From Sialis fuliginosa (lineage: Eukaryota; Arthropoda; Insecta; Megaloptera; Sialidae): a stretch of 64,000 bases of DNA. A program made the translations under genes and the position numbers. Each line of letters opens with the position of its first letter. The stretch's first letter is position 1. This document shows positions 15,055 to 21,000 of the stretch, piece after piece. The notes beneath the pieces were generated by a model. It searched no databases. It was given only the letters and a program-made list of their open reading frames with translations, and was not told the origin of the DNA. The stretch lies in the NCBI GenBank assembly GCA_961205875.1, contig OY540818.1, forward strand, positions 12,994,761 to 13,058,760. The letters run 5' to 3'.

Positions 15055-18000
15055 CTATCTGTTTGCTTGCCATTTGAATTTGGATTTCATGATCCATTGT
15101 TGTCCTGGATCATTTGGAGTACATTCTCGAAGCAGTGGTTGGGCTGGATCACTTGGATCAGGTTTTTGTAAACAGTTTCCTGTATTTATATGTTTGATTG
15201 TTTTCTCCTGCAAATAACAAAATAATCAAAAATATTATTTGCTTTTTTAATGCTGAATAATGTTCATAAATGATATTAAAACATATTAAGGAGCGTTTCA
15301 GTATTATGTAAGTATAATTCCGCTGATTTCAGACCCCCATCACCTTCTTTGTAAGAAAAAATTAGAAAATTATAGACTCCCCCTTATTTTAAATAAATCA
15401 AATAACCTTTTATGTATGGGATTCCCTAAATTGAGTAAGCTACTTTATTTTTATTTCTAATAAAGAATATTTAAACAAATTTGGTATGGAAATAAAATTT
15501 TTTTAAATTAATTTTAAATAATAAATATTATTTTTAAAATATTCATTATTTTGTAAGATTTCTGGTCTCCCCCCACTCACTTCTTTTCTCAGCAAAAGTA
15601 AGAAACAAATTTTACCCCCTCATTCTCTAAGCCTAAACCAAATGTTTCAGAAAGGGTGTAACAGACAGACAGGCACAGTGTTGATTCCAGAAGTGTGATT
15701 TTGGTACAGAACATTAATAAAATACATTATTATTTTAAATACCTGTTCACTATACACCCAAGCTTGGTTTCCTCCCATTCCGTGACAACGTACAAGTTTA
15801 ACTGGTCCCCTTGGATGGGCTGCGTCTAGGCAATTGTCATCAGACATGATTTGTTTTCGTTTAGTATAGGCAAATACTTGATTGCCGCCTAAGTTATGGC
15901 AGTAAGATGACCCTAATGGTTCTCCTGATTTACGACCCATTGTGTCTAAACAATGTTGCGTTTCTACATTACGTACCTGTACAAAATTATAAATTACAAA
16001 TATTACAATAAAATCATACGTAAATGATATAAAATTTTAATTTCTTAAGTAAGTTTAGAATTCTTGGTATAAGTCGTGACATTTTGTAACATATAATAGA
16101 CATTTCCAGTGGTTAATAGTTTAAAAAATAAAATGTCAGATATCCATTTAATTAAATTTGGAAACTTGAATGGTAGACAATGTGACTTATATCCAGAAAC
16201 CTTGTAAGTATTGTAATTAAAACTTACATCTCCTAAATAATAATAGTCTAGTGGCATTTGTGATTCAGGGTATATATTTTCTAAATACCAACGGAAGCTC
16301 TTACACTTCAACCGTTCTCGTAATGCCTTACGCTCAGAAACATCACCAACACTGACACTACGTGCACCTGAAATCAAAACCAAATTAATATCATTACTGT
16401 AATTTTATTGTACATGAAATGAAACAAAGAAACTATAAATTAAAGCATATATAGATAAAATAAAATACAAATGAGAAAACGATGTGCAAAAAAAATTCAT
16501 GCAATCTTAATTTTTTGAGATTTATTTTAAACTTGTAAAATAATGTGATCAAATCTTTGAAACAAGATATTAAGCCAATATTTTTTCATTTAATTTATAT
16601 ACTCAGAACTATAGTAGAAATCTATTTCAACCTCACTACAAGATTTAATAACATTAATAATAAAATTAATCTTTTTAAGGTAGTTGTTATGCAAAACATC
16701 ATTTCAGTAGAATTAAAAAAAAATTCACAGGGGTAAAAGAACAATATCTAACCGAATGTGAAATTTTAACGAAAATTTGCAACTTTAATACATGTCAGTT
16801 ATACCAAGTACATAGGCCTGTTAACCTTCTTGACTGAACGCTTTCGACAGATTTTGATAAAAAAAAACTATCAAACAGCAAAGGGTTATTATTATGATAT
16901 GTAAGAAAAAATTCAAAATGATTCACTGCTTTGTTTTTGAAATACAAACATGGAAAGAATTAAACTTTAACAAACTGTGCGCTGCTAGATGCGTGAGATT
17001 TCTTGAATTGTTGTAATAGCATCAATTTGAAAATCACGCGGCTAGTGGCTCTATTTGTTGATGTAATTTGCATAGCAATGCAAATTTCTCTGATATTTTA
17101 CCATGGTATTATAAGTGTAACTTTTTCATAGTACTGTAGCAAGACAACTACCTTAAGAAAAATTATTTATAATAAAACATTTTATCTTTATAAGCACATA
17201 AAAAACAATAAAATTATCCGACTACAACAACAGATGCATGATAATCCAACACCAATACAATAGTATCATGCAAAGTTAGTAAGGGAGACCTGGATTAATG
17301 TTATAGTAGAACTCCTTCCATTCGTCCAGCCACACCTCGGCCAGACGCGCATTGTTGTGATTTACGATATGACTCGTGCCGCCCGGAAACGTGTACGGAG
17401 TAGACTTACGAAACACGTGCCCTACGTGCGAACATGTCGCTATTTCCAGAGATCCCCCACACATCCACGCCTGTGTGCATTCAGTAGCCGGTAATGACAA
17501 CAATGTTAGTAATTAGCTTTGGTTAGTTTAGTTAATTGACAAATTCACATTTATAAATAACACCTGTTAACTCATATTAATTGTTTTAATAAAAAGCACT
17601 GAAATGGTTAATCATTAAATATATTGATGAAATTTATGTTAATATGTTATATCAGTGGTTTCCAAACTTTTTAGACTCGCAGCGCCCTTCCCTAAGTCAA
17701 AGCGTGACTAACTAGTAATGAACAAGTCAAATAATGGGATTAATGAGCCTCTGTGAAGATGCTGCGCTCCCAAGGGCACAGCGGTACATACTTTGGGAAC
17801 CACTATGTTATATATGATTTAATTTATGATTTTATGTAATCAATTATAATTTCATAAATGATAGCAAGCTTGTGTTTACAAATAGCAATATTGATTTAAT
17901 TTTAGTAAGCTTTGATCTATAGATAAAATAATGTTAATATAAGCTTAATTAATATTAGCATTACATTATTAGATATTACAAATATTACTAATTAATATTA

Positions 18001-21000
18001 ATATTGATTATTAAAAATGAACTGATTACACTTATACATTTTTTCATGATAATTAATATTTAAAATAAAGATAAATAAAACACATCAACCCACTGATCAC
18101 AGATAATAATGAATGTCGTTAATGAATTACTGAAAAATATCTGCCATAAGTTCCAAGGGATAGTGTATGAGTTTCTAGTTAAATAAAACAAATCTTTCTG
18201 GCTAATTAATAAAAGATAGAAAAAAATTAATTAAACATAAATTATAGAAAATAATGTCCCCTACAACTTTTATTATAAATATTTTTATTATTATTAACTG
18301 TTTTATATATAATTTAAAAAAAATTATTTTGTTTATTGATTAGACAGACAAAAAATTATGGAACATAAATATTAAAGGTTCAATATAACTTTTATCTAAA
18401 AATTGTTGTAAAAATGTTTTCACAAATAGGTCTTCTTCCTGGAAGAAAATTGATCCCAAATATAAAATTTCACCCTCTTATGTCGTTTTTGAATTGCAGT
18501 GTCTACAGAGCAATATACAGATATCATGGCAAAAGTAGTTAGAACTAATTCAGGGAAGGTCAAAATGAATATTTCCATCAAAATCTCAAATAAAAAAATA
18601 AATAAAAAAATACATCCTTATATAGGATGGGCCATCTGTTGGTTTTATTTTTGAATTGTGTGTTATTTTGACATTGGGAATACTTTAAAATAGGGGCAGC
18701 ACTAGAAAAAATGACAGAGGACTTTTTTTCAAGAAATTGGTGGAATTTGATGTATAGAACACCGTGATAATTATTCTCCCCCTTCGAAAGAGGGTGCATG
18801 TATAACTTTCTAGGAGCTTACAAATGCTATGTCAAGCGTGTCAGTGTTGCCAATGTCGAAATAATACACACTTCAAAAATAAACCAACAGATGGACCACC
18901 ATAAATATTCAAACACATACATAATGACCATATAAGAAAGTAAAATATATTTAACTTAAAAATAATTAATGATAAATTATTATTTATTATACTACTACCA
19001 TACTAGTTATGCATTGTAAATAATATCCCCTAATTTGTTGTGTTAATATAGACTGTTAAGTACATTTTGCAAGCTGAATACTATAAATATGAAGCTTATC
19101 AAACCTGGGTTCATTGCATAATAGAAATCTCTCCATTCATCCATCCAAACTTCTGCTACACGGGCGGCGTTGTGAAGTACAATTTTCGATACACCACCAG
19201 GGAATGTATATGGAGATTTATCACGGAACACGTGACCGACGCGTGAACAAGGAATTATTTCTAGTGTGCCTCCACATTGCCATACCTGTGTGATCATGAC
19301 GGCAATGCCACGTGCAACAATTTACTTTAATGTAACTTTATATGTATTCATTTTATGATATTTGTATACACAAGCTGCTACACCTATATTATAGCCGTTA
19401 TATGTATAAAAATAAATAATACTTAAAAAACAAGCTGTGTATCAAATATGCAGACATTAAAAGTATTTGTATATTCTAACATATTATAGTAAACTCTGGA
19501 TATAATAACATATTTAAAATGTTACGTTAAAAATTGTATTAAAATAAAGTTCAATAAAAATATAGAAAAGGAAGAAAAACTCATATAAGACACAATTACA
19601 ATTAATTTTGATACACTTTTAGGTAGTTTATATGAGCGCTATTATACCCAGAGTATGGTGTTCAAAATAAATTTTTAAAAAGGTGTATCACATACCCTAA
19701 AACTCATTTCTAAATTTTCACCTCCCCAGATATCCATGCCCTCATCGTACGATCCCAACTCATAGAAATATTCTTTATCGATTGAAAATAGACCTCCCGC
19801 CATTGTTGGTGTATGTAATGGTGCAGTACGATCATTTCCCCTGCGGTCCATTTCACGTTGAGGAACTCTGTACCTAAATAATTAAAATATAACATGTTGA
19901 AACCTAATTTTAATCTTATCAATTCATTACGATAATAACACTCACCATCTGAAATTTAATTTCCAATTGAATCCTCCCCACGTCATATCAGAAGCTGTGA
20001 TATATTGGAAAGTTTCATCAGAAATAACGTCAATGATTGGACAGACAATGATTTTCCTATCATATGCAATGCGTGCTAGTAAAGGTTCAAGCCAGCCTTC
20101 CGTACACTCACAGTGAGCATCGAGGAATGTAATGACTTGCCCGGTGACGTGTTTTGCACCGAGTAAACGTGCCCGTATTAAACCTGACCGTTTTTCTGTA
20201 CGGAATACTAATGTAGGCACTGGCAGAGTTTTTACATAGTCTTCCAGTTCCTTACCCAGATGATCTATTGTTAGGATAATTATAATTAAATATATATTCA
20301 TACAAATGATTACATTTGAATATTAATGCTATTCACCTCTTTCACTAGCATCGTCTACTAGTATAATTTCTTTGAGCAAATTTCTTGGTGATCTATTAAT
20401 AACACTCCACACTGTTCTTAATAATGTTGACCATGCTTCGTTGTGAAATACAATAACAATACTTGTCGTTGGTAATAATGATACATACCGTTTATTTTTA
20501 CATCTATTGAAAATTATTTGTAATATAATAAATCAGTTTTTTAATATTTTTAACTAATATAATTATAAAACTTACCCATCATATCTGACATCTGCTAAAC
20601 TTCTATTAAACAGAATCATGTCACTTGCTAATAAATTAAACTGATTTAGTTTGAATTTTTCTTTCATTAAATCTTCTTGTTCGGGAGGAATTGAAACTGC
20701 TTGACCCATTTCACCTGGTTTACCAATATTTTCTTTTACTGTTGGCGCCGGTCTCCATTTTCTTAACTCCGATGGTTTATAAACAGAATTTTTACTAACA
20801 CTAAGAGCTGTATCGCCCGAATTTACATCTCGTACTAATTTGTTGTAAACTATACTATTTTTATTATTTATTTCTACATCAATTTCACCCTGTTTTTTAC
20901 AGCCCCATGAAGTGGATAAGCAGTCAGAATAAAATGTTAATACTATAACTATAAAAGATATCCATACTAACGACGTAACTAATATTATTCTACACGTATG

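Follow-up and report, generated by a model that had tools for sequence, protein, structure and literature searches.

The exchange of a GalNAc-transferase segment by alternative exons is not a new idea, as it has already been described for Drosophila pgant5 (PMC12776162). According to the text of that preprint (bioRxiv, December 2025), the pgant5 isoforms A and B differ in residues 398-457, which comprise the catalytic flexible loop and a helix-turn-helix, and PGANT5A carries D419-K420-S421 where PGANT5B carries K419-S420-T421 (UniProt Q6WV17-1 and -2, as cited there). D419 was reported to raise kcat/KM on a basic Sgs1 mucin peptide and K419 to favour the Glu version of this peptide, and residue 457, Thr in A and Pro in B, was placed at the interface with the lectin domain with an effect on activity (PMC12776162). 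In salivary glands pgant5A is predominant and the knockdown was partly rescued by pgant5A only; the authors suggest that glycosylation of the basic mucins in Drosophila saliva is what PGANT5A evolved for (PMC12776162). In Drosophila pgant9 the switch lies in the lectin alpha subdomain and is made between exons 8A and 8B (PMC6115407). Here, a tandem exon pair is analyzed in a GalNAc-transferase gene of Sialis fuliginosa, located within 64,000 nucleotides (nt) of contig OY540818.1 (assembly GCA_961205875.1, positions 12,994,761 to 13,058,760; this whole stretch is called the window). What is new is a catalytic-loop exon pair in an insect distant from flies, with implications for how old the switch is. 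For such a pair outside Drosophila no report was found in open-licence PMC full text, a search beyond which lie most subscription papers and UniProt. The word 'insect' is absent from the main text of PMC12776162, and a paper on Tribolium pgant5 is, in the text available from it, without mention of splicing and speaks neither for nor against the pair (PMC8024498).

The gene occupies positions 15055-21027 on the minus strand of the window and consists of eight coding exons, all read on this strand, with an uninterrupted frame from start to stop. Coding exon 1 (20576..21027) contains the start codon, the membrane anchor and the stem, and its N-terminus aligned weakly (8.7 bits) to residues 6-32 of the GalNAc-T1 chain 8v9q. 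It is followed by exon 2 (20337..20503), exon 3 (19946..20264), which encodes the DxH motif as FLDAHC at residues 253-258, and exon 4 (19696..19873), which ends at phase 0. The fifth place can be taken by either of two exons, 5a (19105..19285) or 5b (17290..17470), which are separated by an intron of 1634 nt (17471..19104). Downstream follow exon 6 (16228..16367) and the lectin domain exons 7 (15743..15976) and 8 (15055..15207), the latter with the stop codon. Pfam family 2 glycosyltransferase and ricin-type lectin domains were identified in both isoforms, the lectin match at residues 478-595. The whole-protein PDB search was performed with the 5a isoform and 5b was compared by segment. GalNAc-T1 (8v9q) was matched with 769.5 bits, the best among the 16 PDB sequences listed, followed by PGANT9 structures with 531.7 (6e4r) and 528.3 bits, T2 with 471.4 bits and T10 with 465 bits; for the 5b segment alone, the closest PDB match was also T1. 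Because the full-length PDB scores favour GalNAc-T1 over T2, T10 and PGANT9, the gene is identified as the insect orthologue of GalNAc-T1 and Drosophila pgant5.

Exons 5a and 5b are 181 nt long apiece, equal to 60 codons and one base, and are bounded by an AG acceptor and a GT donor. Their phase is identical, with entry at phase 0 and exit one base into a codon. A protein open over 607 amino acids is obtained with 5a or 5b alone, whereas joining both exons leads to a stop after 453 amino acids and skipping both to a stop after 391. Each exon encodes residues 373-432 and one further base. This segment contains the GHVF motif (residues 389-392), the histidine of which is the third metal ligand by alignment, then from residue 393 the flexible gating loop (RDKSPYTF in 5a, RKSTPYTF in 5b) and finally a helix-turn-helix; loop position 394 is Asp in 5a and Lys in 5b. 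Similar length, splice sites, reading frame and homology, the features by which clusters of mutually exclusive exons are recognized in the text of PMC3228551, are all found in this pair. The original prediction had proposed two tandem exons of 181 nt and equal phase, which encode GHVF and the flexible loop and break the frame when both or neither are used, and on the minus strand its coordinates, the translations of both exons and the two premature stops confirmed this in full. The anatomy supports a swap of the GalNAc-transferase active-site loop by these putative alternative exons, which are uncombinable in frame. The pre-mRNA would take either 5a or 5b, and transcripts with both or neither would be frameshifted, encode a truncated product and presumably be removed by decay. 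The choice of exon would thereby exchange the GHVF histidine, the gating loop and the helix-turn-helix together.

Like Drosophila pgant5, the window gene is a T1 orthologue with an alternative segment of 60 residues in the same place. At the nine positions whose A and B residues are named in the text of the preprint (PMC12776162), 5a agrees with 5A at six and with 5B at one, and 5b agrees with 5B at six and with 5A at none. The match is full in the loop (419-421), where DKS is found in 5a and 5A and KST in 5b and 5B, and it extends to helix I, which has the hydrophobic L434/A437 in the A type and the polar N434/N437 in the B type. At position 455 the separation is partial, as 5a has Met like A and 5b has Ile where B has Phe. 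Exon 5a is accordingly assigned as the putative orthologue of the Drosophila pgant5A segment and 5b as that of the pgant5B segment. The window pair is described from genomic sequence, the fly pair with expression and activity data. Since segment length and place are the same and each exon has six paired diagnostic residues, common descent of the window and Drosophila exon pairs is the simplest reading, in which the tandem duplication of the fifth coding exon is older than the split between the lineages of this insect and of Drosophila. By analogy with the fly enzymes, Asp at residue 394 (Drosophila 419) of the 5a form would direct the enzyme to positively charged acceptor peptides and Lys of the 5b form to negatively charged ones, and exon choice would tune charge preference instead of switching between T1 and T2 specificity. 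Taken together, it is very probable that the gene is a pgant5 orthologue with a tandem-duplicated fifth exon, the copies of which are mutually exclusive, are held in common with Drosophila and serve charge tuning. Both exons would then be spliced in vivo, possibly under tissue regulation.

The two exons are identical at 41/60 residues and at 117/181 bases, and by codon position at 45/60 (first), 49/60 (second) and 22/60 (third) bases. The NG86 comparison of 5a and 5b gave a dN of 0.275 and an undefined dS, reflecting saturated synonymous change, and the third base was kept in 5 of the 19 four-fold codons common to both. As synonymous sites are saturated while 41/60 residues stay identical, 5a and 5b are interpreted as old duplicates held by protein-level selection and not as a recent copy or a product of chance. 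Over 300 nt on either side, the introns flanking 5a and 5b were no more alike than shuffled sequences, since a likeness as high was reached by 139/200 shuffles upstream and 58/200 downstream. A search for the segment through the genome (392 Mb, 20 contigs) yielded nine places, namely the two exons 5a and 5b and seven further sites at great distances from one another; all nine candidate loci were scored, and for large families such search counts are lower bounds. The nine loci are read as eight GalNAc-T genes, with two copies of the segment predicted only in the pgant5 orthologue.

The original prediction had described 5a as T2-like and 5b as T1-like. Numerically this holds, as 5a is identical to T2 at 41/60 and to T1 at 37/60 residues and 5b to T1 at 44/60 and to T2 at 37/60, but the differences are slight and the distinction is weak. 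The same numbers bear on a different origin, in which 5a was acquired by exon shuffling from a paralogue, T2-like or other, and exon choice would alternate between T1 and T2 specificity. Such an origin would agree with the top PDB match of the 5a segment, which is T2 (91 bits, compared to 85.6 bits for T1), and with its 42/60 identity to a paralogue at C12:13743608, one residue above that between 5a and 5b. These margins are small, however, a tree of 12 segment rows gave no resolution, 5a is as near to 5b (41/60 residues) as to T2, and the loop triplet of 5a is DKS and not the KQH of T2. The protein containing 5a is moreover T1-like over its whole length, and shuffling is therefore considered very unlikely. 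With the rest of the enzyme unchanged by the swap and the 5a isoform matching T1 at 769.5 bits and T2 at 471.4 bits, the proposed switch between T2 and T1 specificity was rejected. The meaningful contrast between 5a and 5b would instead be the charge at Drosophila position 419, Asp or Lys.

The pair also resembles Drosophila pgant9A and pgant9B, in that a charge switch is made through alternative exons of a GalNAc-transferase (PMC6115407). The fly swap takes place in exon 8 and affects the lectin domain, whereas in the window gene residues 373-432 with the catalytic loop are exchanged and the lectin match begins only at residue 478, which is not a lectin switch of the pgant9 type. The statement in the original prediction that pgant9 switches in its lectin domain was correct (PMC6115407), and by anatomy the catalytic-loop swap is distinct from it, as had been proposed. 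A separate pgant9-like gene was noticed by eye elsewhere in the genome (C4:9287419).

Several observations weigh against the reading of 5a and 5b as a mutually exclusive, charge-tuning pair of common descent with that of Drosophila. The comparison with the fly isoforms covers the nine named positions, and each window exon misses three of the nine residues. Position 430 is Ser and position 456 Asn in both window exons, and Pro457 is also found in both, where the fly has Thr in A and Pro in B. Of what distinguishes Drosophila A from B, the part at the lectin interface is therefore predicted to be absent from the window gene, and the loop charge difference to be common to both. Thr/Pro457 was not taken as defining the pair; this lowers the claim of a common lectin-interface effect, and orthology rests on the other features. 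In the segment tree, eight of the nine inner branches lacked support and 5a, 5b and T1 were not separated, and the tree was not used. The tandem exons of human GALNT13 and C. elegans gly-5 are reportedly lectin-domain exons. These two genes are alike to the window gene in tandem exon substitution, and in 2022 Pgant5, GALNT13 and gly-5 were named as examples of tandem duplicated exon substitution, in a set presented as convergent (PMC9741552). Such convergent events between phyla, together with the three missed residues per exon, would fit independent duplications in the window insect and in Drosophila with convergence of the loop residues, but the segments are equally long and lie in the same place, and each exon has paired residues at six diagnostic positions, which speaks against it, and we give this explanation hardly any credence. 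Concerning the charge effect itself, the text of the preprint reports that it is weaker on Sgs3, that kinetics of the two Drosophila isoforms are alike on neutral T-rich peptides, and that PGANT5A uses Sgs3E faster than Sgs3-MD, contrary to a simple charge rule (PMC12776162).

The splice sites belong to the same side of the balance. Donors were scored with a rough splice-site matrix and compared to the 201 intronic GT sites of this gene, true donors included. The 5b donor, CAG|GTCTCC, is poor (2.77), with 18% of these sites scoring higher; the 5a donor reached 5.76, with 5% scoring higher, compared to 7.88-11.09 for exons 1-4 and 6 and 5.98 for exon 7. The acceptors of 5a and 5b both end in CACACAG, without a clean pyrimidine run beside the exon. 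Weak donors and acceptors are compatible with regulated use and also with poor use of 5b, which could be rarely used. In the extreme case 5b would be an unused relic that persists by chance in a gene making only the 5a form, as its weak GTCTCC donor might indicate. Exon 5b is nevertheless open and in phase, retains GHVF and the PYTFPGG loop, and equals Drosophila 5B letter for letter at 419-421 despite the saturated synonymous sites between 5a and 5b, and Drosophila 5B is a described isoform (PMC12776162); a relic is thus highly improbable. The alternatives considered here overlap in part, and their probabilities need not sum to one.

With regard to the mechanism of exclusion, steric hindrance was ruled out by the 1634-nt intron between 5a and 5b, and an incompatibility of U2 and U12 sites was also rejected, since the exon 4 donor is an ordinary U2-type site and no donor of the gene resembles the U12 consensus. 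As an addition to mutually exclusive use of 5a and 5b, intron 4 might pair with the 5a-5b intron, loop out 5a and so enforce exclusion. A 21-nt inverted repeat indeed flanks 5a on the minus strand, with one arm upstream of 5a (19356..19376) and its partner within the 5a-5b intron (17867..17887), and the arms are 90% complementary. An equally good repeat was obtained in 31/1000 shuffles, however, uncorrected for the three intron pairs tried, and looping is regarded as unlikely. Over these three pairs, RNA pairing as good as observed was found in 31/1000, 94/1000 and 51/60 shuffles, and pairing is not claimed. With a GC content of 0.52 (window 0.28), 5b exceeds all other exons of the gene, and it contains 16 CpGs compared to 9 in 5a. 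As a sign of an alternative exon, its CpG density of 1.35 (0.19-1.12 in the eight other exons, window mean 1.12) allowed no claim.

Small repeats were observed in the introns around 5b. A short element at 17653-17805 in the 5a-5b intron has hAT-like ends, CAGTGGTTTCCAAACTTT ... GGGAACCACTA, and is flanked by two copies of TGTTATAT (17645-17652 and 17806-17813); it has the appearance of a non-autonomous DNA transposon. The same intron contains a foldback element (18619-18907), the inverted arms of which measure 33 and 41 nt and are 82% and 88% complementary. In the intron between 5b and exon 6, inverted ends AAGGTAGTTGTTATG and, on the other strand, AAGGTAGTTGTCTTG (~16677-17154) suggest another small transposon.

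Among the seven other genomic loci with the segment, L014 was T2-like and L016 PGANT9-like by eye. Locus L001 (G000:C9:2548153-2548713 and flanks) is an intronless GalNAc-transferase gene with one open frame of 581 amino acids, GalNAc-T7-like by eye, in contrast to the eight-exon gene of the window. On contig C19 (L005, G000:C19:14118-14567 and flanks), intronless open reading frames (ORFs) that look bacterial by eye were found, one of which matches the family 2 glycosyltransferase model; this contig is perhaps a symbiont or contaminant. Viral and genomic contig collections each yielded one confirmed locus related to the exon, neither of them from an insect by its ORFs. The viral contig IMGVR_UViG_3300031565_011202 (L009:4386-5939) encodes, beside other ORFs that resemble glycosyltransferases by eye, a protein of 517 amino acids, a segment of which is GalNAc-transferase-like (43% identity, query residues 1-65). 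Elsewhere in the window, the plus strand holds a peptidase C13 piece, GPI8-like by eye (5607-5900), a piece with three chitin-binding matches (8624-10456), a trypsin-like piece (11954-12646) and a tRNA-Pro gene with the anticodon CGG (34649-34720), the sole tRNA gene called, and the minus strand holds a C2H2 zinc-finger protein (39060-40616).

The age of the switch was approached through the nuclear receptors USP and EcR of the host. Among the best 60 of 486 matches, the USP segment scored 273.5 bits with 2nxx, 270 with 4ozr and 252.9 with 1z5x, compared to 157.2 with 1hg4 and 149.8 with 1r1k. The EcR segment, joined from two exon pieces, scored 304 bits with 2nxx, 297.9 with 4ozt, 265.5 with 1z5x and 201.6 with 1r20 (best 60 of 429 matches). 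Of these chains, 2nxx is from Tribolium, 4ozr and 4ozt from the Bovicola louse, 1z5x from Bemisia, 1hg4 from Drosophila, and 1r1k and 1r20 from Heliothis. A fast-evolved USP is common to Diptera and Lepidoptera. Based on these scores, the species of the chains and the fast-evolved USP of flies and moths, the host insect is placed outside Diptera and Lepidoptera. An aphid is disfavoured by the carotenoid desaturase family, for which all 11 matches stayed under the cut-off of 238.1 bits, the best reaching 47.6 bits, and were confined to the first 55 positions of the profile. If the exon pair is common by descent and the host lies outside these orders, the Asp/Lys switch is probably older than the fly glue mucins by which the preprint explains it. 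It seems likely that the Asp/Lys loop switch is of ancient origin in insects, perhaps in arthropods, that it arose before this insect and the flies separated, and hence not for Drosophila salivary glue as proposed in the preprint, that flies recruited it for glue, and that Thr457 was added later in the fly lineage. The two parts of the switch would then be separated, the loop charge being common to both insects and the lectin-interface Pro/Thr not. The adaptive explanation of the preprint, based on fly glue mucins, would become testable, and other, older substrates would be indicated. If this is true, a single insect gene with a charge dial would do the work of separate vertebrate enzymes.

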